Shown: positions 5,634-44,410, numbered from the stretch's first letter. The stretch is 44,410 nt of DNA from a virus (IMGVR_UViG_3300045135_002240:1-44410), one strand, 5' to 3'. Program-made: numbers and translations. Notes: generated from the letters alone by a model not told the origin.

Positions 5634-5640
5634 GCTTTAG

Positions 5641-5683: not shown

Positions 5684-5711
5684 TTGCTTTTAGGAACTTC
5701 AGGATTTTAAA

Positions 5712-11100: not shown

Positions 11101-14100
11101 CCCGGAGTAGACCCCACATCATTATTGCTTGCAACAGGCACAATTGCAACTATGACTGGTAGCATGGTTGATAGTCCCGGCATATCCGCTGCTGGAGCAG
11201 GGCTAGCGGGTGGTGCTACCGGCATGGCTCTGCTAGGGGCTGAAGCTACCAAGACAAGCAAGGCTATTACATTCCTTGCTTCAGGCGCATTCGCAGCTTA
11301 CGACGCTTTTATAAAAGCAGAGAACGAGTTGAAAAAACTCGAAGCGCAGGAAAAGATAGACTCAGCACTAGAAGACGTAAGCCATGTAATGGAAAAGTTT
11401 GCTGGTAGTATAGAGACGCAAACACAGAGACTTGAAACAAGCTTCAGTAAACTTAATGCTGCAGTTCAAAGGTCTATAGAAGCTCAGGTCACAGACGCTC
11501 AAGGTGCGTTCACTGCGATTCGTGGGTTGCTAGGCTCTAATAACGCCCTTGCCACTAGAATTGAAAACCAAGTTGGCTTTTTGAATCTGCTTGTTGCTGA
11601 TATTAGCGACTTCTTTACGGGCGGCAACAGAGGCGGTGAGCTAAGAGAAAGAGGTCTCGAACAGTCCATAGCCGCAGAAGCGGCTGTTGCAGCTCCGGCT
11701 GCTGAAGCGGCTAGAGGAACTTTGCAAGCTAAGATTAGAGAACAAGCTTTAAGAGACCAAGCTGTAGGCATAGACATACAATCAGACGAAGCTACCGATA
11801 TTGACTTCCGAACCGCAAATAAAGAACAAATACAAGCTATGATGGCAGGTGAAGAAGACTTTATTAAGCTAAGAATTAAGTTGCAACAAATGGTTAATGA
11901 CGGCACCATAGATGCAGCACAAGCTAATGAGCAGCTTAATAACTTTATGCGAGAACGAATTAGGCAGCTTGAACAAGAAACTGAAATGTTAATCATAGCT
12001 GAGCAAGCGGCAGAAAATTTTGCCGAAGCAATAGACCTTATGCAGAAAAGGTTTAACGCCGTCGCAGCAGTCGCTGTTAGAGTTGGCGAAGAAATGGAGA
12101 ATATGAATGCTTCCATGGGTAGGAACATTGGTGCCGCTCAAGGTCAAGCTTCATTTGGGTTTGATGAAAACCAATTTAGTTCTGTGTTCTCAAACATGGC
12201 AGCTTATACTCAAGCCGAGATTGCTTCTTCTATTAATAACCTTGGCTCTGCAACAGGTCTTGCTGGAAACGAAAGCTTTGATGAGCTAGCAAATGTTGTA
12301 TCTACCACGACATCATTGCAGGCACAATTACCTCAGCTGATACAAGAAAGCCTTAATGAGTCAGGAGGTGCTTTGTCAGATGACTTCGCCAATACACTAG
12401 AGGCTAAGATAACTGAGGCAACAGGGGGAGCAGATGACCCAGTTGTTCAAGAAATGCTGAACTCGATTATAACATCAATTACTGCTGGAGAAGGCAGACA
12501 AGATGATATTGGTCAAGAAGCTATAAATAATCTTGTCAATCAGTCTATGGAAAAACTTAGCGAGAGGGCAGAAGTGGCCAGCAAAGCCATGGAAGAGCTC
12601 GCTAAAGTCATGGACGAACAGATGAAAAGGCTTGCCGAAGCTATAAATACGCAAGCCGGTTTAATTCAAGCCGCAAATGTTGCTCAAGAAAGAGTGAATC
12701 AAATTGCATTCAGACAAGCCCAGCAGATGGCAGAGCTTACGGGTGCCGAACTTACATTAGACCAATTGTTTGCTCCATTCGAGTCTCAATTAAAATCCTT
12801 GACAGGAGGTCTAACAGACCCCAATGCAATTGCCAATCAGAGAGCTACCCTTGAAGCTGAGAGGAGAGAACTTGAGTCGAAGATGAGCCAGACAGCTCCG
12901 GGTTCTGATGAAATGGGTGCTTTGGCTTCAGAGGCCGCTCAGGTTACAGCAGCTCTTAATGAAACACACGCAGCCCTTGAGCTTCTAGCAAGCGACACAA
13001 CAAGACAAGCTGCCCTCGTCCAAAAGCTCAATAAGCTCAACGAAGCTCGTTCCGGCGCCCAAAATATCATGGAGGCTATCCTTACAGGAGACCCGCAGGA
13101 ACTGATGAAGTTTACTCGGGGTATGAACCTTGTAGCTGCCCAACAATCAGGTATGCTTAATACCTCTATGCTTGGTAACGATGATAGAGCATTATTGTTC
13201 CAAATGTTTAAGATGCTTCAACCTCTAGCTGGTGCTGACGCAGGTCTCGGAATACCTAAAGATGCTTTTAGCACAGGTGGTCTTATTGGCGCCATGATGG
13301 GAGACTTTGGCTTGGATGGTGGGCCTGCTATGGCAGGTTTCAATATGCTTGCTACTACCAACAAAGGAGAGTCTGGACAAGAAAGAGTTTTGCTTCAGCA
13401 ATTAAATGTTGTTAATGGCGAACAGTTAGCCGCAGCTAAGGAACTGGCAACTATTCAGGCAAATATTGAACACGAACACGGCCAACACTTAGCAAATATG
13501 CCAGCAAGGTTTGCAGCAGAACTTGCAACACATATAGACAGAATTGTTAGCGAAATAAACATTCAACACGCGGGCGAAACTTCTGGTGTGGTAGTTCCTT
13601 CTGCAAGACAACCGGGAGATACTTCTGGTTTTGTTTCAGGTCCTGACGGTATCATGGCACCAGTAGCTGGAACTGCCGGGGCTGCGTTTGCACCTGCGGA
13701 TGCTTTCAGTACGTCAGTGGCCTCCCAACCTATCGCGGGAGGTGGTTCCGGACAAGCTACAATTGTCAGCATGGGTAATCCTGCTGATTGGGGTCTTTTG
13801 CACTCAGGGCAAATCTCAGCGGACGGAACATTTGAAAAACCTTATGCTCTAATGGATGCAGCCGACGCATCCACACTTATGACAGGAGAGCACGGTATAA
13901 CTAAAGATGGAGCCATATGGAAAGGCTTGCTCAAAGGCGGAAAAGCAGAAAAAGAAAAGACAGGTTTTCTTGATAGCCTGCTGATGAAAAGAAGAAGGCC
14001 TGACCAAGAAGTTTTAGAAAAACTTGCGGGCAAGACAGTTCCGGGTGTTGGTGACACTGACAAGGTAGCCGCCTTACTTACTCCAGAAGAGTATGTTGTT

Positions 14101-17100
14101 AATAAACGCGCTTCTATGAACAACCGAGGCATACTAGAAACAATTAATGCCTTGGGAGCTAGCAGAAAATTCAGATTAGTGGCTGCTCGTCGAGGAGGTG
14201 TTATAGGTCTTAATACTGGAGGAGCTGCTGAAGAAACCTTGGGTAATCTAAGGATTCGGGGCCCTCAACAAGACGACTCTTTAGGAGTTCTGCCAACAAT
14301 TGATAGTTGGATAAGCTCGGTCATGAGCTCAATAGGACTAGGCGACACATGGGAAAGCCTTAGCCAAGAGACGCAAGACATGATTGCTGCTATAACTGGA
14401 GTTTCCACAGTTGTGGGAGGTGGTGTTGCAACCGTTAAAGGCGGCAAAGGCCTCGCTAACCTGCCGGTATATGGTTTTAGGAAACTTACAGGTAGGCCAA
14501 CAGGAAGACTCAACGAAATAATTAAGCTGGCAAATGCAGGAAACCTTGAAGAGCTGAAGAAAAAGAGTCTGCTTCGTCGTAAAAATAGGTATTCAACTGC
14601 TGATATCAATGCTATTCTTGACCATCCAAACTGGGCTAAACCCGGTAATAAAAGACAGCTTTCTTCACAAGGAGTATCCAATCTAGAAGATATTCTACAA
14701 GACAGAGGTGTGTCACGAACAGCTACAACAAAGCAACCTCCTATTCCCGGTGGGAAGAAACCACCTCCTATTCCCGGCGGAGGCGGCGGAACTTCTGGTG
14801 GAGGCGCAGCAGCCCAAACCCAACCTCAAAAACCTACAAAGCCCCAAACAGGCACATCAGCCCGAACCCAAGCTCAAGCTCAACAAAATGTAAAGACCGG
14901 AAAAAGCTTTAACCAAAGGGTTGACGATTTGAAAAAGTGGTACGGTAAGTATCGTGCCGGTAAAGCACAGTTACCTAAGTGGCTTCGCTTTTTAGAGCCA
15001 GCATGGGGAGGGGAAGTAGCTGGAGAATTTTTCACCAGCAACAAGCTTGGCGCTAGTGTTTCTGAAATGTTTAATAAGCTTGATAGATTTGCAGAGGAAT
15101 TATCCGTTACTTATTACGAGACCAAGCCGCCTGTAAAAACATCAGCTACGGCAACTAATAAAATTGTACCTATTAGAAACAGGCCTACACTTAACCTCGC
15201 AGAGGGCTACCAAACGGTTTCCCTTGGTCCCGGACAAGGTTCAGTGCAAACTTATAGGCCGGGGTATCAGGGTCCTGCAGGTGCGGATGGAAAACCTCTA
15301 CGAACGCAACCTTTAACTGTAAGAGCTCCTCAAGCTACCGAAATTCCTGATATATATACAGGTCCAAAGCCTCCAGTAATAAAAAAGGTGTCACCTCCAG
15401 CAACGGTAATGTCACAAGCTGACTTGGGGCCAAACTCAATCAAAATTAGTGATACTGATGTTAAAGTCAGACCACGGAGAGACTTGGTGCCATCAAACTT
15501 TACTAATGCTCCCACAAGAGAAACTGTTGTGTTAGCCCAAGCATCTGACGATTTGGCACTCGCAAGAAATCTAAATCCGAGCAAAAACTTTCGCAGTAGG
15601 TATATGCAAGTTGAATCGGAGACACGACGGCTTCTTAATCAGATAGATGAAATTAAAGCGAGACCATTCGAGTTGCCGGAATGGTACCGGCGGGAGCCTA
15701 AAACTCCGGGTTTAAATCAAATGATTGGCGATATCCGAGCCAATACACCTAAACCAAAACCGAGCATGACACCAGCAAACCAAAAGGCATTGGCGGAGGC
15801 AGAAGAATTACTTTCTGCGGCAAGGGCTCGGCGAGCTATTCTAGACGCAGAACTTTCAAGCTTACGTGCTCAGGGCGTTAAGGTTAGTAGAGTAAGTGGT
15901 GAATTTGGGAGAACATTTGATGTTCCTATAAATGAGTTGGACGATGCCACTTTTAAGAAGTTGTATTCAAAGAATGTTCCAATTAGGCGTCCGGGCACTC
16001 AAGAAAAAATATTACAAAGCTTGGCTGACATTGATGTTCCTCAGGTGTCGACTGACTTCGGCCCAGCCTCATCGAGAATCCAAAGTCCTTCAAAAGTCAC
16101 AAGCGGACCCAATAAAGGCAACAAACCCACAGGTCGCGGAGACTTACCTTCGAATTTGAGCGACGACTTGCTTACAAAACTTGATAACGTTAAATCTTCA
16201 ACAGCTGCATCTTCAGCAAGCAAAATACGGACTACTAACGCGGCTAAGGCAGCAAGGGGAGCAGGTCTTCTACTTGAGGCTGCTATGATTTTTGGTGAAG
16301 CGGGAGCGTATGCAGTAGAAGGACATCTAGCTAAAACTGAGTACCTTGATAATGCCAAAGCTGCATTTGATTTGATGGTTAAAGAACAAACGGCCCAAGG
16401 CGCGTTTGAGGGCTTTACCAAAGAAGAAATTGAGCGTGAGATAGAGTTGAAAAGACGAGCATACATGAGGCCCTATCTGGAAGCAGCTAATTATCTAGGA
16501 GGAGAAGGCGGCGTTGGCTCAACTTTAGCTACAGGAGGAAAAAGGGCACTACTGTCGTTGGCCGATTTTGGTGTTATGGGAGCAGAAGCACTCTCCGAAG
16601 CACTTACTCTTGGTAATTATGAAAGCATTAGTTTCAACGGAAAGGAACTTAAAAAAGTCGGTAGCGTTAAAAAGAGAGCTGGAAAAGGCGATGCTCTTAT
16701 GTATATGGCTTGGAAGCACTCAAATGGTATCCACAACTTCCCTGCTTTAGCTGATTGGCGTATTCAAGGAACTCCTATTGAACATCAAGGTCAACCGGTG
16801 TTTAATCCTCTTGGTTACATTGACGGACCACACTATAAAAAAGTTCCGGAAATAGATTCAGAAAGACTTGCAGGAATTATTACTGATGAAGAAAGAAAAA
16901 CGTGGATGGCCTATGGCACAAACCCATTTTTGCCAGAAGCTGAGAAGCCTACCATGGAGGAAAAAAAGAGACAGGATAAACTTAAGGCTTATGCTTCAAG
17001 AACAAAAAGAACATACAGTACAGCGCTGACACCTGAAGAACAGGCAAAGTTAGATAGAGGCGAGGTATACTATGATGTTCCTATATTTGAACAAGTATCA

Positions 17101-21396: not shown

Positions 21397-24300
21397 ATGC
21401 TAGGTGGACTATTAGGTAACGCCCTCTTTGGGGGTTCAGAAAGAGGTTTTGTAGCGCCCTCAGCAGGTGACGGGGATGCTACGAACACCACTTTAGGTCC
21501 ACCTATTGGAGACAGCTTTTTAGCTGATAAGGGTAGCGTAACTGGCATTAATGGGCAAGGCAAGCCTGTAGACGAGAATGGCTCAGAAGTCGTACCAAGT
21601 CCCGGAGGCTCTTCTCTATTTTTGCCCGGAGATATATGGGGAGGTAACTTTGGGCAGGGGCAAGGAATATATTCACCTCAAACACAAGGTACTGGTCCCG
21701 GTCCAATTCTTGCAAGCAAAAGAACTGCTATACTTTGCCCCGGTGATGAAGAGATAAAACATACTCTTTTCTTTGGCGCTTCTGTAATGGATTTTGCTGT
21801 GACCCTTGGCTACGGCGAGCAAAGCAGCTCCTTAACAGTAAGACTTGTCGAGGATGAATGCGAAGGCACTCCTAAAATTTATTATCAAGGCCACGACAGG
21901 CTCGGGTTAAACAATCAGAGCACTCTAGAAGAGGTCAGCACAACTAAAGCTGATAAATTCATGCCACCAAAAGTTGGCAGTGCCGTCTACTTTAGGATGG
22001 CCAACTATGAATTTTGTGGTATTTTTCAAAGCTTTACAAAATCAAGAGGTACAGGTGGTAAGCCTGTATACACGGTTACACTCCTAGACCCAAGAGAACT
22101 ACTAGCTGGTGTCAACCTAATTATTGCTGATGAATATACCGACGCTGCCCTTACTCCGAATATTATTAACGTATTCGCAATTATGGAACAATACGGTATT
22201 CCTTGCCCAAGTACAGAAGGAGGCGCTTTTGGCGGGGCAGGTTCAATTGAAGAGGGTATGCCTTGGAACAATATATATACAGGCCTGATGATATCTCAGT
22301 CTGGGCTTTCTGCATTTAGCGGTATAACTCCCAAAAGACCTAGGATGGGTGGTTGTGAGTTTCATTTAGACCTTACTAATCTTCCGGTTCCTCCTGATGA
22401 CTATAGGATTTCAGGAACAAATGTCAGTGTTCTCGATGCAGTCTCTCAGTTGTGCGAAGATGCTGGTTTTGAGTTCTTCATAGACTTGATACCAGCGGTT
22501 GTTAGGCATCAACAAGGTTATTATTACACAGTCCTTATACTTAAAGTTAGATGTGTAGACAGAACCTCTCAGCCAAACCTAGATGCTATAGAGAATTTTA
22601 TAGATGACCCAGATAATTTGGTCATGGAAAGTTCTAATGGTCGTGAGTTTAGAAATGATGTAACAAGCGCCATGATTATTGGTGGCAAAAAGACTGGCAT
22701 ATATGAATGTGAATGTCCGGGGTTTACATCGGGCTGTAGTATTACCGGCATACAGCCTTACTGGGGCGTTGACGACAACGAAAATTTAATTACAGGTTGC
22801 CGACAACCTAGTAACGGTGAATATTTTATAACAGTTTCTACAACCAACCTAAATGCAACTTTAGATTTAAACCTTCCATTTGCGACTTATACTATTACCG
22901 AGTCTGAAATGAGAGCTGCCCTTATGGGAGAAAAGGCTTGGACTGGTTGGATTACAGCAAATCAACATCCTATTAGCACACTCTTCTTTGGCAACAAGCC
23001 TATGCAAGTATGGGCATTTGATGCACTTAAAAATGTTTTACAAAAGGTAAAAAATAATAATGGAAATGTGGGAGGCAACGCACCTAATATTAAGCCTCAG
23101 CACTTTGTACAAGCCAACAACGCTATCAGAAATTATGTGAGCAAGTCCTTCGCCCAAAATTCGGGCGAAAAAGCAATGGAAGACCTAAAAAGAGTGTTTT
23201 CTTGGGTGCAAGGTTTTGCCAGAAGATATGGCAAGGAATGGATTGTCCCTCTTCAGGGTATATGCAATGTCGTTGACAGAACATCCGGAACACCTAGAGT
23301 AGCAGCTCATCCAACAGACAAAGGCTGGACAGACAATACCAACATTCTTCATTTAGGTGCTCCTTTAGCAAAGACGATATTTGGTGGAGATGATGCGGAC
23401 GGAAGATTAACTGCTTTTGTAAGATACAACCTATACAATGGAGGTTCCTTTGGAAGTGGGTTTGGGGGAGCTTCTGTAGCTGCTGGTAGAAGGCTTGATT
23501 TTAGCAAGCTAACCAAAGGTGAATATTATTCTAATAATCAAGCAGTATGGATTAAAGCAAATAGCACTAATGAGATATCCTATCTTAACAATAAAAATAA
23601 AATTGGTCCTCACGCAATATTAAAAGTATCTGCTCCTTTAACTTCTAAACCTACAGAAGAAGGGGTAAATGAAGCTTATGCAGCACTCTCAAGAGTCATA
23701 GAGATAGTTCAGGGTGGCAATAAACAACAAGCTCAAGCTGCCGCAGAGCAGATAAGAAAAGGTATCGGTTCAAACTGGACAAATATTGGTATGAGCGACC
23801 AATCCATGATTCCTGTGGCTGCCGCTATACCAATTCAATACGAAGGTGCGACCTATGGCCCATGGGAAACTAGCGGAGCTTCTGACGGAAAAACAAGAGT
23901 TCAGGTGGACGACAGCTTAGTTCCTTGGAATTATGCTGGTCATGTTCTCTTGAATCAAGCCGGACAAAACTTGGCCGACCAGCAAGTTACAAATATGCAG
24001 CAAGCTGAAATGGGAAGTATAAAAGTTCCCGGTTTACCAAACAAAATTAAAATTGGTCACGAGCTAAACCAAATAAATTCTGACTTTGCTCTCGTGGAAA
24101 ACAGAAGCGTCTCCTCTATTGGCATAGTTGGGGGTGGTCAGCTTTCAGGTTTGTCTAGATACTACTACATTGATGAGCCAACTATGAATAATAGTTTTGG
24201 GCCAAATATAACAGGTATTCAAATAACTATAGGCACAGCTGGCGTAACAACCACATATAACTTTAGAACCTACACGCCTAAGTTCGCTAGATTTGCAAAA

Positions 24301-27300
24301 CTCAATGCAGAACGACTTAAAAAACTAGCTAGAGCAAGGATTGCCGCAGCCAAAGAGCAAAGAAAACTTAACCTCAAAGCCCTTCAACTTCAAGGCAAAG
24401 GCTTCAGAGGAATTCCCGGAATGGGAGGTTTCACCGGAGGTGGAGGCGGAGGAGGAGCTGCTGGGCAAGGAGGTGGCGAAGGTGACGGAAGACACCAACA
24501 AGGCCAAAGAGTTGGTAAAGAGCAGGGAGCTTCTGCTGGTGGTAGCGTGGCGATTGCTGCTAAAGCAACTTCCATGACAACCGCAGATAGGCAACAGGGT
24601 GTCTCTGTAGATATAGCGTTCTTGCCCGGAGGAGAGTTGCAGACAGTTCTTGATGATGATTATGACCAAAAAGCAATAGCTGGTATTGAGTCGCTTCTTT
24701 ATCCTGTTTCTCTTGGTGGAGATGCCGACCTTCCTCCTCTCGCTTTCTCTGCCGGAGGAGGTTCCGTGGCCAGCAGACCAAATGGGCCATACAACGGAGC
24801 TGCAAGTACGAGAGACCAATTACATGATGGTAGCTATGATATAGATGGGCTGCACGCTCAACCTTGGCAGAACCCTAACGGATTTAGTTTCTCCAGTCTT
24901 CAAAATGATAATCTTGGAAAATCAAGAAATGAAATTAATGAAGGTCATGGAAACGACTTAGTTGCCAGAGGAGACGAGCCTCCAGAATCATCTCTGTTTA
25001 GCGAAGTGGCTGAGCATCATGGTCAAAGCGAAGCTTATTCTGATGATTACAGATTCTTAGCACTTAAGGGTCCGATTATGATTCACGGCTGGGGCTATGA
25101 CCTGCAAGGAAAGCCTATACCTAATGCCGCAGATACTGCTGGTGGAGCTGCTGCTGGTAGCTTTACAACGACAGGTTTAGAAGATAAGTTTTTACCGGGT
25201 TTCTTGAGAAATTCTCACACATGGCCAACTGCTCCTTTAGATTTGAGGTTTGACAGAGAAAGAGGTGTTTGGACAACACCTCAACCTCCTAGATTTGCAC
25301 AGGTTATTTTAGAAAAGTGCGGCAAACAGCCAAACGTATTAGCACCCGGAGAAGAAACTGTCAGCCCTAAGGATTGCGCTGACGGTAAACTAACAGCCAA
25401 AGAAGTAGACGGAACCTCTCCTGCAGCTTGGGATGAAGATGGGGCAAACGCAAATGGCGACAAGTATTTAATTGTAAGAAATGATGGCGATAATCCTATA
25501 CCTGTAGGTAAAAAGTTCAAAGTCTACTGGGACAATTTTATTGGTAGATGGTTACCTTTTGGAAGTGCCTCAAGCAGCGAGGATATTGTTGTTGCTAAGA
25601 TGACTGACAACATGGAGCCTGACCAAAACGGAGAGGCAGAAATTGTTTGTCCTACTTCTCGTGCAGGCGAAATGATTGATGTGGTTAATACTCTTAAACA
25701 ACCAATCGCAAAAGAAAAACACATAATAGCTTGGAATATAAACGATGAGTGCGATGACCCATGTGCTGATACATGCCCTCCGCCTAGCTCCGGCTCTTCT
25801 TCTAGCTCTTCTTCTAGTTCTAGCTCTAGCACACAACTTGACTCTTGCTATAGAGTCTTACAGGCAGAATTTTGTCCTCTAAATGTTGTTACTTCTGTTT
25901 ATGTAGAAGAAAGATATGATGCACTTTATAGCAACTTGACATCTGGAGGAAGTACGGAAGCAAATGCGAACCCCGGTTGTAAAAAAGCTATGAGGAATGA
26001 CATTAGCATTTGTGATAAGAAGATTGCTGTAAAAGTTTGGGTTGATGAATATGCTCAAACATGTCAGAGTCCTGTTGTTACTAGCTTGTGTGGAGGCAGC
26101 ACAACACCCCCTACTACACCTCAGCCACGACCGTGTCCTCCATATTGTGGGCCCGGAGGAGGTCCCGGAGGAGGCGGCGGAGGCGGCGGAGGCGGCACTG
26201 GGCCCGGAGGAGGTCCCGGAGGAGGCGGTCCAGACCCACCAGCTCCACCTCAGAACCCTGATGAATTTTGTTTAACTGGGGGCGGAGCTGTAAATGCTCC
26301 AAATCTAGAGGGCTCATGCTGTACTTATACTGACGAAGACGGCAATAAGAAAATCATTCCTATTGATGACATATTGCCTGAACCCGGACAGACCACTAGC
26401 TCTGATAGGTGTGTGCTTGATAAAAATTCAACTATTGTTGGTGCGACGCCAGAAAACGGCGAACATGGACTTGGTGGTACAATTGGTACTTGTGCTAATG
26501 TTGAAGACTGTGTCATTGAATATACTCAAGATGGAAATGATATAGTCATGGTAGTTAGGTCCTACTGTGATGGAGAGGCTGTTGACCCAGATTTAAATGA
26601 AGATTGCGTAGGAGGCCCAGATTTCCATTGTTGTTGTTGTGATTTGACAAATAGCGACCTAATAACAAACGACTTAAACGATTGTTGTAGTATTATACCT
26701 ATAAATCTTGCATTCACTAGAAATGACTGCCAAGGTCTCGGAGGTGAGGTAGTAACCTGTCCTGCAAACAAGTTCCCTGCTTGTCAAGACAAAACTTGTC
26801 CAGCAGAAGGAGAAGAACCAGACGATGAGGACACAGGTGCCTGTTGTCTTTACGAAAACCCAGAGCTAACCTTGGTCTGCAAACCAATTGGAAATGGTGA
26901 TGCTGGCACTGTAACTAGAGAAGATTGTGAGGCTTTTGTTCATCCTCAAACTGGTAACCAAGGACAGGTTATTGATTGTGAGAACTGTCCTGAAGTTCCA
27001 GACCCAATCGTTCCGGGTTTTTCAGGAGGTTGTACTACGGAGTATAGAGGAGGTTTAGACAGCCAAAATTATCCCGGTCCTATTCCGGGAGCAACTATTT
27101 GTGGCCCCGGCACAAAAGACACTGATTGTGATATGATTTGGGACAACGAGGAGATTAACCATTGGCTTGGGATTGACACCAGTGTCGAAGGTGCCATTAC
27201 AGGAGGAATCGACTGCCCAGAGTGTCTGGTCTGTAAAACCGATAGCGATGACATTCCTTTTGTCAATATACCAGCTTTCAGTCTAGCTGAGAAAGCCGCC

Positions 27301-28479
27301 CAGTGTATAAAGATAGGAGGAGGTGGGTATGGCGGTACAGTAGCGTGGGCTAGAGACTATCCCGGAAATAGATACTTTGATAAAAACTGTAGCTGGTGCT
27401 GTGAAGATGGCTTAGATGGAAGCTTGTTACCTATTGGCCAATTCGGACTTAGCGCCAAAGAGTGTAGAGAAATTGGAATTGGAGGGACTGTTGTTTCTTG
27501 CAATCATGACCAGTTTGAAGAAGGAGAAGGAGACGCCGCACAGACTGATGACCGTGAGAATACATCTGACGACGAAGCGTCAAATCTAGGAGATGGAGGC
27601 CGCTCAGCAGATGTTGACGACAATGAGATTGCTCCACGAGGAATTAACGACGACCCAACAGACCCAAATTATTTTGTGGGAAGACCTACAAATGCACTCG
27701 GTCAGGCAGTATCTGCGCCTAGTTCAGCCGCTGGTTATTCTAGCGGTTCTACAGGAACCTCAAATCCTTGTGACCTGTCTAGTGCTTTGTCAACTTCTCA
27801 GGACGATGTAAACCTCACTATATGTACGATTGTACCTGCTGGAGCTATCACTTCTTCTGCCAGCTGTTCTCCCAGTTACCCCGGTTTTGGTACAGCCGCG
27901 TTTACAATACACTCCTGCGCTGATTATAAATTTAATATGGAGTTTGACCATGTGATGTATCCGTTATTATGGATAGATGTATGTGAGAGAACAATATATC
28001 TTCAGTCTGCCTATAGCAATCCTGTATGTAGCACAGAGCGAGGCGCAGATGTAAAAGAGCCCAAGCAGTATAGCTCAGAAAATTCACAGAACGTAGAGAT
28101 GCCAGTATTTAATAAACCTTCACATGAACTTACGTATGATTTCTATGGATACACGAGTCCTCCACCTGCAAGTAAAATTATGACAGGCACATTTAACCAT
28201 GATAAAGCGAATGAGGTTGAAGACCCAGAACCAGAAATAACATTTGAAGAAGGAACTGAGAGCGCAGGTATCTGGAGCTGGGAAAGTTGTGAAAACTGTG
28301 GAGGTACAACGTCAAGCGGGGGTTCAACGTCAAGCGGAGGCTCAACAAGCTCTGGGGGCGGAAACACAACTAATTTAGCAGGTATAAACGTACCTAACTC
28401 TGCTTCAGACGGAGAGAGTAGTGACTCAAGTATAAACTCTCCTGCAGGCTCTCCTCCTACATATTCAGAAGGTGATTAG
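21397..28479 (+). CDS. Giant tail hub/tip protein with Ser, Gly and Cys-rich repeats, 2,360 aa
   Basis: Starts at ATG 21397 behind AAGGAAGTGA. Residues about 110-600 resemble a tail hub: VYFRMANYEFCGIFQSFTKS, VYTVTLLDPRELLAGVNLII, VLDAVSQLCEDAGFEFFIDL and DVTSAMIIGGKKTGI. Residues 1000-1080 are Lys/Ala helical then Gly-rich. A polyserine tract lies at about 1463-1477 and a Gly/Pro tract at about 1583-1612. Four cysteine modules of the form CC...C....GG...C start near 1641, 1745, 1816 and 2001. A GGSTSSGGSTSSGGG tract is near the C-terminus. Gene order and the hub-like part support a baseplate or tip role; the C-terminal half looks like a display stalk with disulfide or metal-stabilised knobs. 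The Cys modules resemble GACC-type repeats in other large surface proteins, from memory only. Confidence 0.7.
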   Translation: MLGGLLGNALFGGSERGFVAPSAGDGDATNTTLGPPIGDSFLADKGSVTGINGQGKPVDENGSEVVPSPGGSSLFLPGDIWGGNFGQGQGIYSPQTQGTGPGPILASKRTAILCPGDEEIKHTLFFGASVMDFAVTLGYGEQSSSLTVRLVEDECEGTPKIYYQGHDRLGLNNQSTLEEVSTTKADKFMPPKVGSAVYFRMANYEFCGIFQSFTKSRGTGGKPVYTVTLLDPRELLAGVNLIIADEYTDAALTPNIINVFAIMEQYGIPCPSTEGGAFGGAGSIEEGMPWNNIYTGLMISQSGLSAFSGITPKRPRMGGCEFHLDLTNLPVPPDDYRISGTNVSVLDAVSQLCEDAGFEFFIDLIPAVVRHQQGYYYTVLILKVRCVDRTSQPNLDAIENFIDDPDNLVMESSNGREFRNDVTSAMIIGGKKTGIYECECPGFTSGCSITGIQPYWGVDDNENLITGCRQPSNGEYFITVSTTNLNATLDLNLPFATYTITESEMRAALMGEKAWTGWITANQHPISTLFFGNKPMQVWAFDALKNVLQKVKNNNGNVGGNAPNIKPQHFVQANNAIRNYVSKSFAQNSGEKAMEDLKRVFSWVQGFARRYGKEWIVPLQGICNVVDRTSGTPRVAAHPTDKGWTDNTNILHLGAPLAKTIFGGDDADGRLTAFVRYNLYNGGSFGSGFGGASVAAGRRLDFSKLTKGEYYSNNQAVWIKANSTNEISYLNNKNKIGPHAILKVSAPLTSKPTEEGVNEAYAALSRVIEIVQGGNKQQAQAAAEQIRKGIGSNWTNIGMSDQSMIPVAAAIPIQYEGATYGPWETSGASDGKTRVQVDDSLVPWNYAGHVLLNQAGQNLADQQVTNMQQAEMGSIKVPGLPNKIKIGHELNQINSDFALVENRSVSSIGIVGGGQLSGLSRYYYIDEPTMNNSFGPNITGIQITIGTAGVTTTYNFRTYTPKFARFAKLNAERLKKLARARIAAAKEQRKLNLKALQLQGKGFRGIPGMGGFTGGGGGGGAAGQGGGEGDGRHQQGQRVGKEQGASAGGSVAIAAKATSMTTADRQQGVSVDIAFLPGGELQTVLDDDYDQKAIAGIESLLYPVSLGGDADLPPLAFSAGGGSVASRPNGPYNGAASTRDQLHDGSYDIDGLHAQPWQNPNGFSFSSLQNDNLGKSRNEINEGHGNDLVARGDEPPESSLFSEVAEHHGQSEAYSDDYRFLALKGPIMIHGWGYDLQGKPIPNAADTAGGAAAGSFTTTGLEDKFLPGFLRNSHTWPTAPLDLRFDRERGVWTTPQPPRFAQVILEKCGKQPNVLAPGEETVSPKDCADGKLTAKEVDGTSPAAWDEDGANANGDKYLIVRNDGDNPIPVGKKFKVYWDNFIGRWLPFGSASSSEDIVVAKMTDNMEPDQNGEAEIVCPTSRAGEMIDVVNTLKQPIAKEKHIIAWNINDECDDPCADTCPPPSSGSSSSSSSSSSSSTQLDSCYRVLQAEFCPLNVVTSVYVEERYDALYSNLTSGGSTEANANPGCKKAMRNDISICDKKIAVKVWVDEYAQTCQSPVVTSLCGGSTTPPTTPQPRPCPPYCGPGGGPGGGGGGGGGGTGPGGGPGGGGPDPPAPPQNPDEFCLTGGGAVNAPNLEGSCCTYTDEDGNKKIIPIDDILPEPGQTTSSDRCVLDKNSTIVGATPENGEHGLGGTIGTCANVEDCVIEYTQDGNDIVMVVRSYCDGEAVDPDLNEDCVGGPDFHCCCCDLTNSDLITNDLNDCCSIIPINLAFTRNDCQGLGGEVVTCPANKFPACQDKTCPAEGEEPDDEDTGACCLYENPELTLVCKPIGNGDAGTVTREDCEAFVHPQTGNQGQVIDCENCPEVPDPIVPGFSGGCTTEYRGGLDSQNYPGPIPGATICGPGTKDTDCDMIWDNEEINHWLGIDTSVEGAITGGIDCPECLVCKTDSDDIPFVNIPAFSLAEKAAQCIKIGGGGYGGTVAWARDYPGNRYFDKNCSWCCEDGLDGSLLPIGQFGLSAKECREIGIGGTVVSCNHDQFEEGEGDAAQTDDRENTSDDEASNLGDGGRSADVDDNEIAPRGINDDPTDPNYFVGRPTNALGQAVSAPSSAAGYSSGSTGTSNPCDLSSALSTSQDDVNLTICTIVPAGAITSSASCSPSYPGFGTAAFTIHSCADYKFNMEFDHVMYPLLWIDVCERTIYLQSAYSNPVCSTERGADVKEPKQYSSENSQNVEMPVFNKPSHELTYDFYGYTSPPPASKIMTGTFNHDKANEVEDPEPEITFEEGTESAGIWSWESCENCGGTTSSGGSTSSGGSTSSGGGNTTNLAGINVPNSASDGESSDSSINSPAGSPPTYSEGD

Positions 28480-37504: not shown

Positions 37505-39162
37505 TGACTTCTCCTTGCATGAGCAAATTGTATATAGTCTGGAAACTCCATCTGCATTTGGCCACATCTAGCAGCTTCACAATTATTAATGTTTTGGCAA
37601 TGTACTTTTAATATATTTACCAGCTTCTCTCTGTCAAAATGCTTCCAGCCTCTGCCGTCAAACCTAGCCTTATGGTTTAGGTCTTTTACATATTCGCTTT
37701 TTCTAAAGGTATTCTCTCTGTCTACGCCTAGGGTTTGATTAATTAACATCTCAACATAGTGCGAGTTGTTGGGGATATCCTGTATGTTAAAGTTTGCGGG
37801 CGCCGGTCTAGCAGGAGAATTCCACTTGTTCTGGTTCTTCTTAAATTCAATTGAATCAAAATGGTCTTCCCAAACTTTTGCTGTTTGGTCCCAAGTGTAA
37901 TGCTCAAATACCCCTTCTCTAGCTTTCATTCCTTTTCTTTGTCTAACAGGCTGGGGAGACGAAAAGAAATGCAGTAGACTAGAAACCAAGTCGCTGTTAT
38001 CAGGCATCGCTCTATACGCGCCTGTCTCAAGCTCTCTGAAAAGTCTCTTGACTTTTATCGGGTATCCATTTATTTTTCTCACAACATCTGTCATAGCACT
38101 GTAGTCAACAGCCATGACAGGAACTCCGCAAGAAGCAGCCTCAACTTGAGGCATTCCAAAACCTTCGCATATAGCGTACTGAACATGTACATCAAATATA
38201 TTGTAAATTTCAGCAAGCTGCTCATCTGTTATACCGGAAGAAACACTTGGGAATACTGCCGTGTAAGCTTTTGTAAACGGAGAAACCGCCTGAGCCCCAC
38301 GGAAAAACGATGGGAAGCAGTTGCCAGTTTGCTTGCACACGTAAGTAAACAAGACCTTGTTACCGAGACCGAATTCTTTAAGTAGCGTTGGGAAATCCCA
38401 TCCTACATCTGGGTAACTCGTGTGGCAATACAAGAAAGTTTTCTGAGCTAGCTCCTTTTTTCCTTGTCTTTCACATTCGTCCAAATATTCTCTGAAGGCG
38501 GCAAATAAGTCAGGGTAAAGCTTCCTTTTCTGATTCCTCATAACAGTGCCAATTATCTTGACATCTTCCTCTAATCCCATGGCTCCTTTGTGAGCTGTTT
38601 TGTTTTTTACGGGGGAAAAGATTTCAGTATCAACTCCGGGAGATGCTGAAGAAATGAGGTTAAGAGTTCCTGCTCCTTCTTTTTCTAAGACATCGTAGCT
38701 CCAGTCGGAATAAGTAAACACAGAGTCGGCTCTTGAAAATATCTCCAACCACTCTGGTCTTTGTGGGGCAGAGTCAACGGTTGGCATGATAGACCAGTGA
38801 AAGTAATCTTTCAGAGGCGAGTTAGCTTGATAATTAAGCATCCAAAAGTCTCGGATGTCCCACACAATGTTTGGCTTAAAATCTAGAGCTACCCTCTCAA
38901 ATCTCCACTCTCCAAACTGATTAGAGGGGTTTCTTTGGTACTCTGAGAATCTAGGGTCTTTGTCAGTAACTGCGTTAGCATAGTAGTCCCAAGGTATACT
39001 TGAACTTCTTGGGTCTTGAACCGTGCCATATGTTGCAAACTCAGCTATGTCATATTTACCTGTATTATGCAGTCTAGTCAGGACTTCTCTTCCGTATTTG
39101 CCATAGCCACTACATAAGAATGAAGCTTCATTACAAAATAAAATTCTTTTTCTATCACTCAT
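37501..39162 (-). CDS. GT4-family glycosyltransferase with C-terminal extension, 553 aa
   Basis: The gene overlaps the sigma factor gene's end by 8 bases. It is a GT-B enzyme: N-terminus RILFCNEASFLCSGYGKYGREVLTRL with the glycine loop SGYGKYG; WSIMPTVDSAPQRPEW and SVFTYSDWSYDVLEKEG; SPGVDTEIFSP; then a donor domain with KIIGTVMRNQKRKLYPDLFAAF and YAICEGFGMPQVEAASCGVPVMAVDYSAMTDVV. The EX7E pair is E333/E341. Residues about 430-553 form an added C-terminal part (FEHYTWDQTAKVWEDHF followed by a Cys-containing tail, NINNCEAARCGQMQMEF) beyond the usual GT4 length of about 380. That tail could bind the acceptor or a partner protein. It is the first gene of the glycan island. Confidence 0.85.
   Translation of the reverse strand: MSDRKRILFCNEASFLCSGYGKYGREVLTRLHNTGKYDIAEFATYGTVQDPRSSSIPWDYYANAVTDKDPRFSEYQRNPSNQFGEWRFERVALDFKPNIVWDIRDFWMLNYQANSPLKDYFHWSIMPTVDSAPQRPEWLEIFSRADSVFTYSDWSYDVLEKEGAGTLNLISSASPGVDTEIFSPVKNKTAHKGAMGLEEDVKIIGTVMRNQKRKLYPDLFAAFREYLDECERQGKKELAQKTFLYCHTSYPDVGWDFPTLLKEFGLGNKVLFTYVCKQTGNCFPSFFRGAQAVSPFTKAYTAVFPSVSSGITDEQLAEIYNIFDVHVQYAICEGFGMPQVEAASCGVPVMAVDYSAMTDVVRKINGYPIKVKRLFRELETGAYRAMPDNSDLVSSLLHFFSSPQPVRQRKGMKAREGVFEHYTWDQTAKVWEDHFDSIEFKKNQNKWNSPARPAPANFNIQDIPNNSHYVEMLINQTLGVDRENTFRKSEYVKDLNHKARFDGRGWKHFDREKLVNILKVHCQNINNCEAARCGQMQMEFPDYIQFAHARRSQ
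37511..37516 (-). promoter_or_regulatory. Ribosome binding site for the 371-aa glycosyltransferase
   Basis: AAGGAG on the - strand, six bases before ATG 37504; it places the start 63 bases inside the longest open frame. Confidence 0.65.
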
Positions 39163-39643
39163 TAGCAGACTCTTTTATTTTTACAATTGCTGATTTAAAT
39201 TTATCATTTGCCCAACCTCTAGACCTACCAAAGTTTTGCCCTATTTCTTTCATAGTATAGCCAAAAGACCGCATTTCTAGTACGGCCTTTTCTTTGCTGG
39301 TCAAGTCAGACGGATAGATTTCTTTTAGAGGGTGCTTTGTTATCTTTTCGTCTTGGAAGCTACCGATATTTATATTCAAATCGCCAAAGTTAAGGATGCG
39401 ATTTTTTTTCTTAGACTCAATAAATCTTATTATTTCCCATCTTATATAATACCAAGCTATTGTAGACAAAGCTCCTCTTGATGGGTCGTATTTTCTTATA
39501 GCCTTCCATAGCCCTATTCTGCCAGCTTGAACATACTCATCGTAATCATTTTCGTTTTTAGGGCAGAATTTTTTTGCGAGAGAGACAACCAACCCAGTGT
39601 TATCCAAGATTAGTTGCTCTTCTCTATCCTTGATTGCCTGCAT
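39155..39643 (-). CDS. Phage sigma70-family RNA polymerase factor
   Basis: The product is 162 aa. Residues 10-75 form sigma region 2 (LILDNTGLVVSLAKKFCPKN, YDEYVQAGRIGLWKAIRKYDPSRGALSTIAWYYIRWEIIRFI), which holds the core-polymerase and -10 contacts. Residues 113-158 form region 4 (LTSKEKAVLEMRSFGYTMKEIGQNFGRSRGWANDKFKSAIVKI), a helix-turn-helix for the -35 element. Regions 1 and 3 are absent, as in small phage or alternative sigma factors. It would redirect host RNA polymerase to phage promoters, likely late genes. The start overlaps the SSB stop (TAATG), so both are made together. Confidence 0.88.
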   Translation of the reverse strand: MQAIKDREEQLILDNTGLVVSLAKKFCPKNENDYDEYVQAGRIGLWKAIRKYDPSRGALSTIAWYYIRWEIIRFIESKKKNRILNFGDLNINIGSFQDEKITKHPLKEIYPSDLTSKEKAVLEMRSFGYTMKEIGQNFGRSRGWANDKFKSAIVKIKESANE

Positions 39644-40026
39644 TACGTGACTAATTCCTTCTCTTTTACCTCAGCAGATTCTTGCTTCTTAGTATTTGCA
39701 CGAGGAGGGAATTCAAAATTGCTGACTCTTACTTTTTCTCTAGACCTTTTATTTCCTTCTTTGTCTTCCCATCTTTCATTCTTCAAAGAGCCATGAATAA
39801 TGATGTTGTCACCCTTATCAAACCACTTTGCTATAGTCTCTGCTCCGCTGTCCCAAGCTTCACAATTAACAAAAGTAGTTTCTTCGTCCGAGTTTCCATC
39901 TTTCTTTCTGAATCTTCTAGATGATGCGATTACAAAATTGACAACTGTTGTTGTCTTATCGCCATTAGCAATTTTTTTAAGCTCAGGTGTTTTTGTTAAA
40001 GCGCCACTGATATGTACTATATTCAT
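39643..40026 (-). CDS. ssb: Single-stranded DNA-binding protein
   Basis: The product is 127 aa. The OB-fold order is clear: MNIVHISGALTKTPELKKIANGDKTTTVVNFVIASSRRF, ETTFVNCEAWDSGAETIAKWFDKGDNIIIHGSLKNERWEDKEGNKR, then SREKVRVSNFEF. The short tail ends EKELVT and lacks the acidic DDDIPF tip that bacterial SSBs use to recruit partners. An AAAGGA site precedes the ATG. The gene has a strong promoter directly upstream and heads the second half of the - strand operon, before the sigma factor. It protects single strands during replication by the DnaE-type polymerase and annealing protein. Confidence 0.92.
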   Translation of the reverse strand: MNIVHISGALTKTPELKKIANGDKTTTVVNFVIASSRRFRKKDGNSDEETTFVNCEAWDSGAETIAKWFDKGDNIIIHGSLKNERWEDKEGNKRSREKVRVSNFEFPPRANTKKQESAEVKEKELVT

Positions 40027-40088: not shown

Positions 40089-41762
40089 CTATATTTGCCA
40101 AACTTTCTTAATCATAAAACTTTCTTTTGCTCTATCAAGCTCACCATTTATCATAACAGTATTGCCTTCAAAGAGCAGGTTTTTATACTCTTCCCAAGCG
40201 TCTGAAAAGATAACGCAATCTATAGCGCAGCTGTAATCACTGACTGTGGAAAATGCCATCTTAGCACCTCTGTTTGGGCCATTCTTTATTTGTATCTCTC
40301 TGACAGCGTCTACCTGAACAGCTATTAAGGGATAATCTTTTATATTTTTATTTATCACATCTTTACATATCGCATTGGCAGAACTTGTATCGCAAGCGTC
40401 AACTTTGCTGCATGTCAAAGGTATTCCTAGCAAATGCTCCTCTTTCCCTGCTACCCACTCAGGCATGTCCTCAAGCTTATAGGGAGGGCTTTCTAAAGAC
40501 ATAACCATACCCTTGACAGACTCTAGCCTCTTCTTGTTTGCCACCGCTCCCTGCTTACCAGTAGGCAGTGATACGACATGCTTGAGTATTTCTAGAAATT
40601 CCTTGTCTCTTTCGTCAGGGTTTTCAAGAAGATGGTTTTGAATCCAACCTTTTTCTTTGTTCGTCAACTTTTGAAACAGCTCGTATTCATAAAGCATCTT
40701 AGTCCTATTGGACGACATGTAAGACATTGCACCAACTGAGATAAGGGCTTTTACTGCTGTGCTTGTTATCTTGTCAGAAAAGAACACAAGAAACTCTCTC
40801 CAACACCAAGCGTCTATTTCTTTATTAAGAGTCTTCTCAACATCGTCTTTATGCCTCTTGATTTTGTCAATAACAGCTTGACCAACGCTCTTCACATTTG
40901 AAAGACCAAAGAATATCTTTTCATCAATAATCTTAAAGTTTTTATTTGACTTTCTTAGGTCCGGAGGAAATATTTCTATGTTCATAACTCTACAGTTATT
41001 CACCAATTCATTTATCTCTTCATGAGGCTTTTGCTTTTCTTTTGAATAATAAAGATAAGAAGTAAAGAACTCTTTGCTAAAGTGAGCTTTGGCGTATGCT
41101 GAGAGGTAGGCATTGAAAGCGTAGCTGACTGCATGAGATTTATTAAAGCTATACCGTTGAGACTTTTCAATCCAACTGAATATTTCTTCGGCTTGCTCTT
41201 TGGTCACGACACCCTTCTCTTCTGCTTTTTGCAAGAATGAGGTCTTTACCTGAGCCATAACATCGGTTTTCTTTTTGCCGATAGCCTTCCGAAGGATGTC
41301 GGCCTCTTGTAGATTGAAACCAGCTATCTCCTGTGCAATCTGCATACTTTGTTCTTGATACACAAGAATTCCAAATGTCTCCTTTAGAGACTGCTCCAAA
41401 GCAGGATGGAAGTATTCTACAGATTCACGACCATGCTTTCTGTCAATGTAGTGGTTGGTAAGACTTTTTCCCTCTACGATAGCTTCCATACATCCGGGTC
41501 TCATAATTGATATGAGTCCAGCAAGCTCCTCTATGTTTCTGGGGCGCGTCTTTTTTGCCAAACTTTGGCCAAGCCTACTCTCAAGCTGGAAACAACCCTT
41601 AGTATTTCCGCTGCTAATTAAATCCCAAGTCCTTTCACAGTCCAAAGGAATCTCTCCAATATCAGGTCTAAACAGAGTTTTCCTGATTTCTTGCCTAGCA
41701 TCGTCTGAATTTTCAGAGCTTGTCTTAAATTCACAGCCACAGGCAAAAGTCAAAGTAGCCAT
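40089..41762 (-). CDS. dnaE: DNA polymerase III alpha, second part (fingers to OB), separate gene
   Basis: The product is 557 aa. After a 37-residue N-terminal extension with CGC (residues 8-10), homology to DnaE starts at IPLDCERTWDLISSGNTKGCFQLES (residues about 38-62). It continues with ISIMRPGCMEAIVEG, GILVYQEQSMQIAQEIAGFNLQEADILRKAIGKK (fingers), RYSFNKSHAVSYAFNAYLSAYAKAHF (203-228), a helix-hairpin-helix-like part (VGQAVIDKIKRHK), and a terminal OB fold (residues about 470-557: AKMAFSTVSDYSCAIDCVIFSDAWEEY). No polymerase aspartates are present; they are on the other gene. The ATG shares a base with the exonuclease stop (TAATG). The two gene products must assemble to give a working replicase. 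Confidence 0.9.
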   Translation of the reverse strand: MATLTFACGCEFKTSSENSDDARQEIRKTLFRPDIGEIPLDCERTWDLISSGNTKGCFQLESRLGQSLAKKTRPRNIEELAGLISIMRPGCMEAIVEGKSLTNHYIDRKHGRESVEYFHPALEQSLKETFGILVYQEQSMQIAQEIAGFNLQEADILRKAIGKKKTDVMAQVKTSFLQKAEEKGVVTKEQAEEIFSWIEKSQRYSFNKSHAVSYAFNAYLSAYAKAHFSKEFFTSYLYYSKEKQKPHEEINELVNNCRVMNIEIFPPDLRKSNKNFKIIDEKIFFGLSNVKSVGQAVIDKIKRHKDDVEKTLNKEIDAWCWREFLVFFSDKITSTAVKALISVGAMSYMSSNRTKMLYEYELFQKLTNKEKGWIQNHLLENPDERDKEFLEILKHVVSLPTGKQGAVANKKRLESVKGMVMSLESPPYKLEDMPEWVAGKEEHLLGIPLTCSKVDACDTSSANAICKDVINKNIKDYPLIAVQVDAVREIQIKNGPNRGAKMAFSTVSDYSCAIDCVIFSDAWEEYKNLLFEGNTVMINGELDRAKESFMIKKVWQI

Positions 41763-42439
41763 TATTCTTCTCCAGAAAAGGAGTCTCTAAATCTAACATT
41801 TTTAGCAGTTCTTCGGTACAGACGCAAGAACCTACACAATAAATTAGCAGTATCCTTTACATCTTTAAGTGCGTCATGGGCGTTTGCAGTGCTCATCCCT
41901 AGATAATCTCTCATATTATCCATACTAAAGCTCGTAACGTCCCTAGAGTTCTCAAACCAAGGAAACATCCAGTGCATTAAGTCTAGCTTGTCTCGCGGAT
42001 GAAAAATTTCTTTTCCAGAGGTGTGTTGCTGACACATCCTATTTACGATATGCAAATCAAAACCAAGTATATTATACCCGCAGGCCAGAGGAGCTGAAAA
42101 CTTTGTTTTGGTTTTGCCGGTCTTGTGAAATTTTTGCAGGAATCCGACGAAGTTAGACCATACATCTTTTTGGCTCGGTGCATTTCTCCAAGACTCCAAT
42201 ATCTCGTCAGTAGAGCAGTCTCTGATATTAGCGTGCCATTCTATGGTCGCCCTATTCCTATCTACATAGTCATCGGAATCTATGTCTACGGGACGCATGA
42301 AAGAATTGAACTCTGCGTTCTTTATTATTTCTAGCTTTCTAGGGTCAACAATTACAGCAGCAAGCTGTACCGGATTTACCTTATGTGGGTCTCTGCCATC
42401 TGTCTCGAAGTCAAAGACACAAATCTTGTTATAGTTCAT
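41762..42439 (-). CDS. DEDDh 3'-5' proofreading exonuclease
   Basis: The product is 225 aa of the DnaQ/epsilon type. Exo I is KICVFDFETDG with D10 and E12; Exo II is in ACGYNILGFDLHIVNRM (Asp after GF); Exo III is NAHDALKDVKDTANLLC with His and Asp, giving the full DEDDh set. It removes misincorporated nucleotides for the adjacent polymerase III-type replicase. It lies two bases after the small helical gene and shares a base with the following polymerase part. No C-terminal polymerase-binding peptide of bacterial epsilon is recognised. Confidence 0.9.
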   Translation of the reverse strand: MNYNKICVFDFETDGRDPHKVNPVQLAAVIVDPRKLEIIKNAEFNSFMRPVDIDSDDYVDRNRATIEWHANIRDCSTDEILESWRNAPSQKDVWSNFVGFLQKFHKTGKTKTKFSAPLACGYNILGFDLHIVNRMCQQHTSGKEIFHPRDKLDLMHWMFPWFENSRDVTSFSMDNMRDYLGMSTANAHDALKDVKDTANLLCRFLRLYRRTAKNVRFRDSFSGEE

Positions 42440-42441
42440 AA

Positions 42442-42741
42442 TTAGTTCTCGCTAGTACCTAGTTTCTTAAGAATATTGCGAATCTTTAGTTCTAAGCCAG
42501 ACTTTTGTGTCCTAACTCTTTCAAGTTCGTGCATCAAAAGTTGCTCTCTAAGTGTGTTTGTGTACTCTTTAAATGCCATCGCTCCATGTTGGTACGAATG
42601 AAGCTGTTTCTTAAGCTCTGCTATTTTCTTTGATGCCATATATATTGCATCTACGTCTCTGTCTGCGCCGCTAAGCAGGTCGTCTATAAAATCAGGCAAC
42701 CACTTATCAATAGCTTGGCTTACATGTTCTGGTTCAAACAT
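42442..42741 (-). CDS. Small helical protein in the replicase locus, 99 aa
   Basis: The product starts MFEPEHV at ATG 42741; a TTG at 42753 could add four residues. Its first 12 bases overlap the end of the uracil-DNA glycosylase gene. It is almost all helix: FEPEHVSQAIDKWLPDFIDDLLSGADRD at the N-terminus and a long coiled-coil-like second half (IAELKKQLHSYQHGAMAF...LREQLLMHELERVRTQKSGLELKIRNILKKL). No catalytic motif. Located between UDG and exonuclease, it may bridge proteins of the replicase, but that is only context. Confidence 0.55.
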   Translation of the reverse strand: MFEPEHVSQAIDKWLPDFIDDLLSGADRDVDAIYMASKKIAELKKQLHSYQHGAMAFKEYTNTLREQLLMHELERVRTQKSGLELKIRNILKKLGTSEN

Positions 42742-43288
42742 TGCTGAGACCAACCGCCTTAGAGATACACTCCAAAGAGATGTCCATTTTGTCCCTGCCC
42801 GTCTGCATCAAATAAGACGGGTGGTAACAAGGCACTATTAACGAGTCCATATAATCAACAGAGTGGGCTTCGCCTATATAGTCACCAAGTTTAAATGTTT
42901 TTTTCAATTTTAGCATGAGCCCTGTAGGAACTTTTCCAAACGTCAAAATTACTTTTGGTTTAAGCTCTTTGATTTCTGACCATAGCCAGCCTTTACAAGA
43001 ATCTATCTCTTCTTTCTTTGGCGCTCTGTTTTTCTTGCCGACAACAGGCCTGCACTTAACAACATTGGTTATGTAAACATCTTCTCTAGAAACACCGCAT
43101 TGAGAAAGCATTTTTGTCAGCAGTTCTCCACATCTACCAACAAAGGGCTCTCCTAACAAATCTTCATCTGCTCCGGGAGCTTCTCCCAGCAGCATTAAGT
43201 CGTTCTTGTTGCCTTTACCCCATACAACTTGATTCCTAGTCTCGCATAAACCACAGCCTCTACAGTCTTTCCAATCCTCAGACTTCAT
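42734..43288 (-). CDS. Family 4-type uracil-DNA glycosylase
   Basis: The product is 184 aa. Cys residues C9, C12 and C15 in DCRGCGLCETR, with C79 in VVKCRPV and C98 in EEIDSCKGWL, give the 4Fe-4S cluster positions of family 4 UDGs. Motif A is LLGEAPGADEDLLGEPFVGRCG (34-54), and the second catalytic motif is CYHPSYLMQ near the C-terminus. It removes uracil from DNA. In this locus it lies within the divided polymerase gene and overlaps its first part by four bases (ATGA), so it is made with the replicase. Confidence 0.9.
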   Translation of the reverse strand: MKSEDWKDCRGCGLCETRNQVVWGKGNKNDLMLLGEAPGADEDLLGEPFVGRCGELLTKMLSQCGVSREDVYITNVVKCRPVVGKKNRAPKKEEIDSCKGWLWSEIKELKPKVILTFGKVPTGLMLKLKKTFKLGDYIGEAHSVDYMDSLIVPCYHPSYLMQTGRDKMDISLECISKAVGLSNV

Positions 43289-44410
43289 TCTATATCTCCA
43301 TTTTCCAAAATTTCTTGAACGCCCATAATCTTATCTAACATGGCAATTCCTAAAACGTCAAACTTTATCATACCAATATCCTCCATATCTTGCATCTCAA
43401 GACCTCCGACAAGCCGTCTAGCTTTTGTATCTAGAACCATAGGGCATATCTCGTTAAGAGGAGAGGGTGAAATTACGACACCAGCAGCGTGTTTACTTTG
43501 AGCTCTTTTTGTACCTTCAAGCCTAATAGCCTGCTCGAATCTTTTGGAAAGTCTGCCTTGCATGTTTCCCTCGTCGTCAATATAACACCACTCTCTTAGC
43601 TCGTCTGGCTTATGTTCAAGAGCCCAACGTATGACTGATGACCCACCTGTCTCTTCCATCATTTCCTGAAGGTCTTCCGCAACAGCCGCCTTGTCAGGTA
43701 TGTGCTGGGTAATCATATTCATTTCATTAAAAGAGATACCACCATAAGCCCTTAGCACGTCTTTTATTGCTCCTCTACCCATCATTGTTTGGAACGTTAT
43801 CATTTGCCCAACTTTTTCTTCTCCGTATCTCTCCTTGATGTAATCAATAATTTCGTCTCTTTTGGAAACAGGAACATCAATGTCGATATCAGGCATAGAA
43901 ACTCTTCCTCCGGTGTTTCTTCCTGCGTTATAGAACCTCTCAAAAATTAATGAGTATTTTATTGGGTCAATTGATGTAATTCCAATTAGGTAAGAAACCA
44001 AACAACCAGCGGCAGAACCTCTACCCGGACCGGGTAACCAGCCATTGTCTCTGACAAAGTTGACTATATCTCTAACTATCAAGAAATAGCTTGACAAGCC
44101 AGCTCCCTGCAAGACTTTAAGTTCATGCTTTACTCTTTCTGCATACTCTTGGTGTCTTGATTTGTCAACCACACCTCTTATTTTTTCCGCCCAGCCATCT
44201 CTGCATAGTTGTCTAAGATGTTCATCTGGACCTAGTTCACAACTGTAAGGAGGTAGGATTGGTTCCCGAAGTATCTCATAGTCCTCACACATGTCAGATA
44301 TCAAAATTGTATTTTCAATTTCATCCTTAGTGTGAATCTCTTTCATCTCTTCAAAAGACGGTATATGGTACTTGTCCGACCTGAAGAATGTTGACAGAGG
44401 CACCTTTTCG
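43285..44410 (-). CDS. dnaE: DNA polymerase III alpha, first part (palm), 5' end outside window
   Basis: The frame is open to the right edge, so the PHP domain and true start lie outside; GTG 44403 is only the first start-like codon. Residues counted from there: IPSFEEMKEI and NTILISDMCEDYEIL mark the end of the PHP region. Next come LPGPGRGSAAGCLVSYLIG (123-141), MPDIDIDVP with two catalytic aspartates (171-176), MITFQTMMGRGAIKDVLR, and MIKFDVLG with the third catalytic aspartate (D349). The gene stops 23 residues later (EILENGDIE), just before the fingers. The missing domains are encoded 1.5 kb downstream as a separate gene. No intein start is present at its end. Confidence 0.9.
   Translation of the reverse strand, partial: EKVPLSTFFRSDKYHIPSFEEMKEIHTKDEIENTILISDMCEDYEILREPILPPYSCELGPDEHLRQLCRDGWAEKIRGVVDKSRHQEYAERVKHELKVLQGAGLSSYFLIVRDIVNFVRDNGWLPGPGRGSAAGCLVSYLIGITSIDPIKYSLIFERFYNAGRNTGGRVSMPDIDIDVPVSKRDEIIDYIKERYGEEKVGQMITFQTMMGRGAIKDVLRAYGGISFNEMNMITQHIPDKAAVAEDLQEMMEETGGSSVIRWALEHKPDELREWCYIDDEGNMQGRLSKRFEQAIRLEGTKRAQSKHAAGVVISPSPLNEICPMVLDTKARRLVGGLEMQDMEDIGMIKFDVLGIAMLDKIMGVQEILENGDIE

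Follow-up and report, generated by a model that had tools for sequence, protein, structure and literature searches.

Does a polymerase gene that is divided in two, with other genes lying between its parts, still encode a working replicase? The question is raised by the virus record IMGVR_UViG_3300045135_002240, a linear stretch of 44,410 bases analysed at its full length (the window), the right end of which is a minus-strand polymerase operon. In this operon DnaE, the alpha subunit of DNA polymerase III, is divided between palm and fingers: one gene (polN) encodes the part up to and including the palm, with a PHP domain in full-length relatives, and the other (polC) encodes the region from the fingers to the OB fold. 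The first-pass annotation of this DNA had described DnaE in two genes with a uracil-DNA glycosylase (UDG), a helical protein and an exonuclease between them, and all of these were found in place. The split DnaE is an old, stable arrangement in a large uncultured group of aquatic bacterial viruses. The explanation preferred here, with a probability of roughly 0.83, is a fixed fission of a phage PHP-containing DnaE replicase, whose two chains would dock non-covalently while the exonuclease proofreads.

Position of the break in DnaE

The divided polymerase and the genes in its gap are the following.

43285..44409, minus strand: polN (DnaE-N), PF07733 1-260/260 (E 1.5e-75), palm with PDIDID and KFDVLG, open at the contig end
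42734..43288, minus strand: UDG superfamily protein of 184 aa, PF03167 (E 1.2e-32), GEAPG and HPS motifs in the sequence
42442..42753, minus strand: p103, a protein of 103 aa, predicted helical, ATG start probably at 42741
41762..42439, minus strand: DEDDh 3'-5' exonuclease (DnaQ/RNase T fold), PF00929 (E 2.7e-10), PADLOC DEDDh (7.5e-14)
40089..41762, minus strand: polC (DnaE-C), 557 aa, PF17657 20-166/166 (E 6.7e-48), HHH_6 (PF14579, 4e-11), OB (PF01336, 4.7e-7)

The C-terminus of polN in the window lies 23 residues past the Asp of KFDVLG, the third catalytic aspartate, as had been counted earlier, and FNKSH is whole within polC. Profile searches against solved structures aligned polN to residue 637 of T. 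aquaticus alpha and polC from residue 640 (E. coli alpha 584), so no DnaE residues are lost. This agrees with the earlier view that the break falls between palm and fingers with nothing missing. In uncut DnaE the third Asp is followed by FQLES after 48-50 residues (n=68). In the split forms polN continues for a median of 22 residues beyond that Asp, and polC has a median of 50 ahead of FQLES. The comparison indicates that nothing is missing and that polC has gained about 23 residues. The N-terminus of polC is a new cap, which reads MATLTFACGCEF in the window protein. The cap pattern CGCx[FWL] was present in 147 of 194 distinct polC and in 1 of 2069 other open reading frames (ORFs) of the same loci. 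As an observation apart, PHROGs 13169, 7513, 11127 and 12219 each have a boundary close to PDIDID, which hints at other break points in known phages, perhaps ahead of this motif.

The window ends within polN, and the 5' part was supplied by L061 and L062, two contigs from other metagenomes that share 95-100% identity with the window over the operon proteins and reach further 5'. In L061 polN (4521-6434) is 637 aa long and carries the PHP domain in the same gene (PF02811, E 5.8e-37), with all nine metal-ligand positions kept and His at the seventh. The break is therefore the sole interruption of a DnaE spanning PHP to OB fold. The domains of the DnaE family were recovered, namely the palm with three catalytic Asp, the fingers with helix-hairpin-helix (HHH) and OB fold, and the N-terminal PHP domain (in L061). 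A single polypeptide was not found; since the two ORFs lie about 1.5 kb apart in the window, the element is named a two-gene variant of DnaE and not an ordinary DnaE. The exonuclease showed the DxE and HxAxxD motifs and the RNase T fold of the DnaQ-like DEDDh family.

Conservation of the split and of its two halves

Viral contigs and species genomes were scanned for the same arrangement. Each scan retained the best 80 of a larger number of matches; the family must therefore have more members than were sampled, and the sample is biased towards the window. At least 266 loci were found with the palm and fingers parts as separate ORFs and with the same break point, and the exonuclease lies between the parts in 266/266. 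These loci represent 194 distinct junctions and, by polN identity, fall into 150 clusters at 95% and 13 at 60%; the window is not a lone disrupted copy among intact relatives. The parts were in one ORF at 76 loci, comprising 75 DnaE in bacterial genome records and one distant virus (L059). Two of the split loci sit in contigs of metagenome-assembled genomes labelled Lokiarchaeota and Flavobacteriales, which are most likely misbinned phage. No cultured close relative was found in the phage collection, every match being below 60% identity. Of the 1349 phage records with DnaE matches, 60 were sampled across the range, and each match was in one piece.

The sequences of both halves carry the marks of retained function. 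The PDIDxD and KFDxLG motifs are each kept at 189 of the 194 distinct junctions, and the exonuclease keeps DxET in 192/193 and HxAxxD in 193/193. The ratio of nonsynonymous to synonymous substitution rates (dN/dS), taken against locus L063 as the comparison with L003 was saturated, was 0.028 for polN, 0.034 for UDG, 0.079 for p103, 0.013 for the exonuclease and 0.019 for polC. Identities of polN and polC are correlated over 300 pairs (r 0.90), and the exonuclease and polC genes overlap or lie no more than 20 nt apart in 176/193. The AlphaFold2 model of polN (pLDDT 91) matched the DnaE structures 7pu7/2hpi in Foldseek with TMq 0.77-0.78, and that of polC (pLDDT 89.5) also matched DnaE in the PDB. 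Conservation, motifs, dN/dS and the one-gene relatives in the same operon described below uphold the earlier reading of a stable operon, not a broken gene.

The gene content of the gap was found to vary. Its length between the half-genes is 611-4501 nt with whole genes inside. UDG occupies it at only 8/194 distinct junctions, on which ground its candidacy as an essential part of the arrangement was rejected, and p103, which had no match in the Pfam or PHROG profiles, was present at 14 of the first 124 split loci. The suggestion that UDG and the helical protein belong to the design thus did not hold; the constant member in the main clade is the exonuclease. Other cargo, recognised by eye from the sequence, included glutamate-dehydrogenase-like, IMPDH/GMP-reductase-like, methyltransferase-like, cytidylyltransferase-like and HNH-like genes and an RCC1-like gene of 816-863 aa. 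The gap is a slot accepting varied cargo (UDG, dUTPase, thymidine kinase and others). Separately, phrog_4335 (window 40092-43288, minus strand) matches both polC 186-307 and UDG 5-160, which hints at a fusion in known phages.

The minus-strand gene order in the window is polN, UDG, p103, exonuclease, polC, SSB and sigma-like factor. Overlaps of the ATGA/TAATG type had been proposed for the whole series. They were seen at polN/UDG (ATGA), at exonuclease/polC (TAATG) and at UDG/p103, where the overlap is ATGTTTGA if p103 begins at its own ATG, but not at p103/exonuclease, where TAA-TT-ATG leaves a 2-nt gap. The two remaining genes of the operon are given below.

39643..40026, minus strand: single-stranded DNA-binding protein (SSB), PF00436 (E 6.6e-27), conserved downstream operon neighbour
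39155..39643, minus strand: sigma-70-like factor, PF04542 (E 1.9e-11), operon neighbour

Upstream of polN in L061/L062 lie a small gene, a PD-(D/E)XK nuclease, a deoxynucleoside monophosphate kinase, a primase and DnaB. The plus strand of the window carries two giant ORFs at 8140-19806 (3888 aa) and 21397-28479 (2360 aa).

Proposed mechanism, origin and alternative explanations

Under the preferred explanation, both chains would be made from one tightly packed operon and fold separately. The N-terminal chain would contribute the PHP domain, the thumb and a palm complete with its three catalytic aspartates, and the C-terminal chain the fingers, the helix-hairpin-helix and the OB fold. Most likely the chains then associate non-covalently where the palm-fingers linker used to run and so restore one polymerase, and the DEDDh exonuclease encoded between the half-genes would supply 3'-5' proofreading, like epsilon in E. 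coli. Binding of the exonuclease to the polymerase and proofreading by it are, judged from gene position, the most likely role of this protein. A wider formulation is favoured with less assurance, though still over its negation: that the aquatic phage clade possesses an obligate two-chain family C polymerase of palm and fingers subunits with a co-assembled exonuclease, in some members with a third piece joined through split-intein trans-splicing.

The origin of the break was considered from viruses with an uncut gene. In L398 and L405, found by a search with a divergent member, DnaE is one ORF within the shared operon order PD-(D/E)XK, DnaE, SSB, sigma, glycosyltransferase-like. L399, L400 and L404 also have a one-ORF DnaE with less of the operon visible, and L419, L420, L421 and L422 were added as one-ORF DnaE viruses by a second search. 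One-gene DnaE in the same operon of virus relatives indicates that the split arose by gene fission. The main split clade received an SH-aLRT support of 100 in the tree, where the operon-sharing viruses stood apart from cellular DnaE. Two further contigs, L401 and L415, share the position of the cut; the genes in their gap are dUTPase, an unknown gene and thymidine kinase, and RNase T was not matched on the L401 contig. L401 placed with the main clade would mean one fission, and placed with uncut L398, two.

That the break arose several times, with the palm-fingers linker as a permissive cut point, is given slightly less than an even chance. L401 groups with uncut L398 at a support of 88. The cultured Rossellomorea phage phiT1 (PV767480.1, L372:3251-6533) likewise has DnaE in two genes, gp20/gp18, cut in the same linker and with no exonuclease between; it lies outside the split clade, next to an uncut Moorella phage with a support of 92-94. 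The approximately unbiased (AU) tests, however, do not reject one split clade with phiT1 (p 0.51) or with L401 (p 0.51). A single fission would be favoured by the CGCxF cap, which L401 and L415 share with the main clade. A break at another site was noted in a distant virus (L406:3109-8517), in which the PHP part of DnaE is separated from the palm part and the two ORFs lie about 690 nt apart.

An unlikely alternative is that the proteins no longer make up one polymerase and that one of them, or both, works on the host replisome or in repair while the host enzyme copies the phage. The following observations weigh against the preferred explanation or favour this one. A beta clamp gene was not found in 20 contigs (fragments), the tau-binding C-terminal domain was not seen, with the polC profile matches stopping near E. 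coli alpha 1055, and a split minimal Pol III alpha is known elsewhere beside a family B enzyme (PMC7824862). Five of the 194 junctions are without a clean catalytic motif, two being explained by split inteins and one resembling a frameshift or insertion. The PHP metal sites are degraded in L006, L049, L058 and L132, in which the exonuclease motifs are intact. Against the alternative, the clade has retained all three aspartates along with the fingers motifs, under strong purifying selection, and the half-genes sit with DnaB, primase and SSB. Forty contigs of 26-244 kb each carried exactly one PF07733 and one PF17657 match. PolA, PolB (PF00136) and a continuous dnaE, the last of which would have told against the split, were all absent from these 40 contigs; as they are linear fragments of uncertain completeness, another polymerase could sit outside them.

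Ligation of the halves by protein trans-splicing through split-intein ends, as in cyanobacterial DnaE, is very improbable. Split inteins do fracture these genes in some relatives. In L170:2038-5114 and L171:2059-5119 a split intein is found at GRG/S in polN, with a free-standing endonuclease-like gene between, so that polN is itself fractured and the polymerase would begin as three chains. In L088:7979-10857 a split intein lies at FNK/SHA in polC with a DUF559/Vsr-like endonuclease gene between. Inteins were also found in frame, namely a mini-intein at the polC FNK/SHA site in L058 and larger ones with HNH-like sequence at RPG/CLEA in polC of L189:5977-8367 and L361:7707-10046. These inteins sit in conserved motifs, whereas the common break sits in the unconserved, variable palm-fingers linker. 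Where the common break falls, polN stops 16-43 residues past the third Asp and polC starts 24-76 residues before FQLES, and these ends are too short for intein halves. No intein motifs were seen in the polN or polC ends, and no N-intein follows the first part and no C-intein precedes the second. A split intein at the common break was rejected on these grounds; an intein origin of the break is possible, with no remnants apparent there.

Ribosomal frameshifting or hopping that fuses the halves was rejected by inspection, since 611-4501 nt with whole genes separate them. Although the window is a metagenomic contig that ends inside polN, an assembly error or a decaying pseudogene of a continuous gene has a negligible chance and was rejected, as one and the same break is found at 194 distinct junctions drawn from many metagenomes, the near-identical L061 and L062 among them, with intact motifs and dN/dS of about 0.02-0.03.

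Comparison with known systems

A replicative family C polymerase is as a rule a single long chain, and a stable cut between palm and fingers across deep divergence suggests a natural two-chain enzyme. The window-type pair would be a ready-made split polymerase for biochemistry. The relatives provide a series of states for the study of gene fission: one gene, a cut with nucleotide-metabolism genes in the gap, and a cut with the exonuclease in the gap. The polymerase of such phages looks truncated, which is a warning for annotation.

Bacterial DnaE (E. coli 2hnh, T. aquaticus 2hpi, M. tuberculosis 7pu7) agrees with the window type in its domains and their order and in the catalytic motifs, from PHP through to the OB fold. 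The window type differs from it in having two genes, a new polC cap and an unmatched tau-binding region. The cyanobacterial split DnaE is cut between Y and CFNKSH, inside the fingers, and carries intein halves. It is also encoded by two genes, but the window cut lies earlier and is without an intein, and with FNKSH whole in polC the distinction drawn in the first-pass annotation between the two sites is sound. Firmicutes PolC carries its exonuclease as an inserted domain of the polymerase chain. Both systems tie a family C polymerase to a DEDD exonuclease, which in the window group is a separate gene between the half-genes.

Among phages, phiT1 differs from the window in having just a 49-aa ORF between its two genes, and its annotation is silent on the split; no relatives of phiT1 were found in the viral contigs. 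Jumbo phages of group 2.2 are described as having a split Pol III alpha with a minimal core, whose genes lie far apart and which coexists with a family B polymerase (PMC7824862); they resemble the window in having a phage family C polymerase as N and C proteins. In the papers searched no split DnaE with exonuclease or UDG was found beyond that report. The window group differs from the jumbo phages in its PHP domain, neighbouring genes, exonuclease between them and large clade, and in the lack of PolA or PolB on the contigs with the window-type split. The two-gene polymerase that had been proposed is real and its products probably form a two-chain enzyme, though phiT1 and the jumbo phages offer precedents. 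Split phage Pol III alpha was already known; what is new is a large clade with PHP-containing, neighbouring half-genes and the exonuclease between them.
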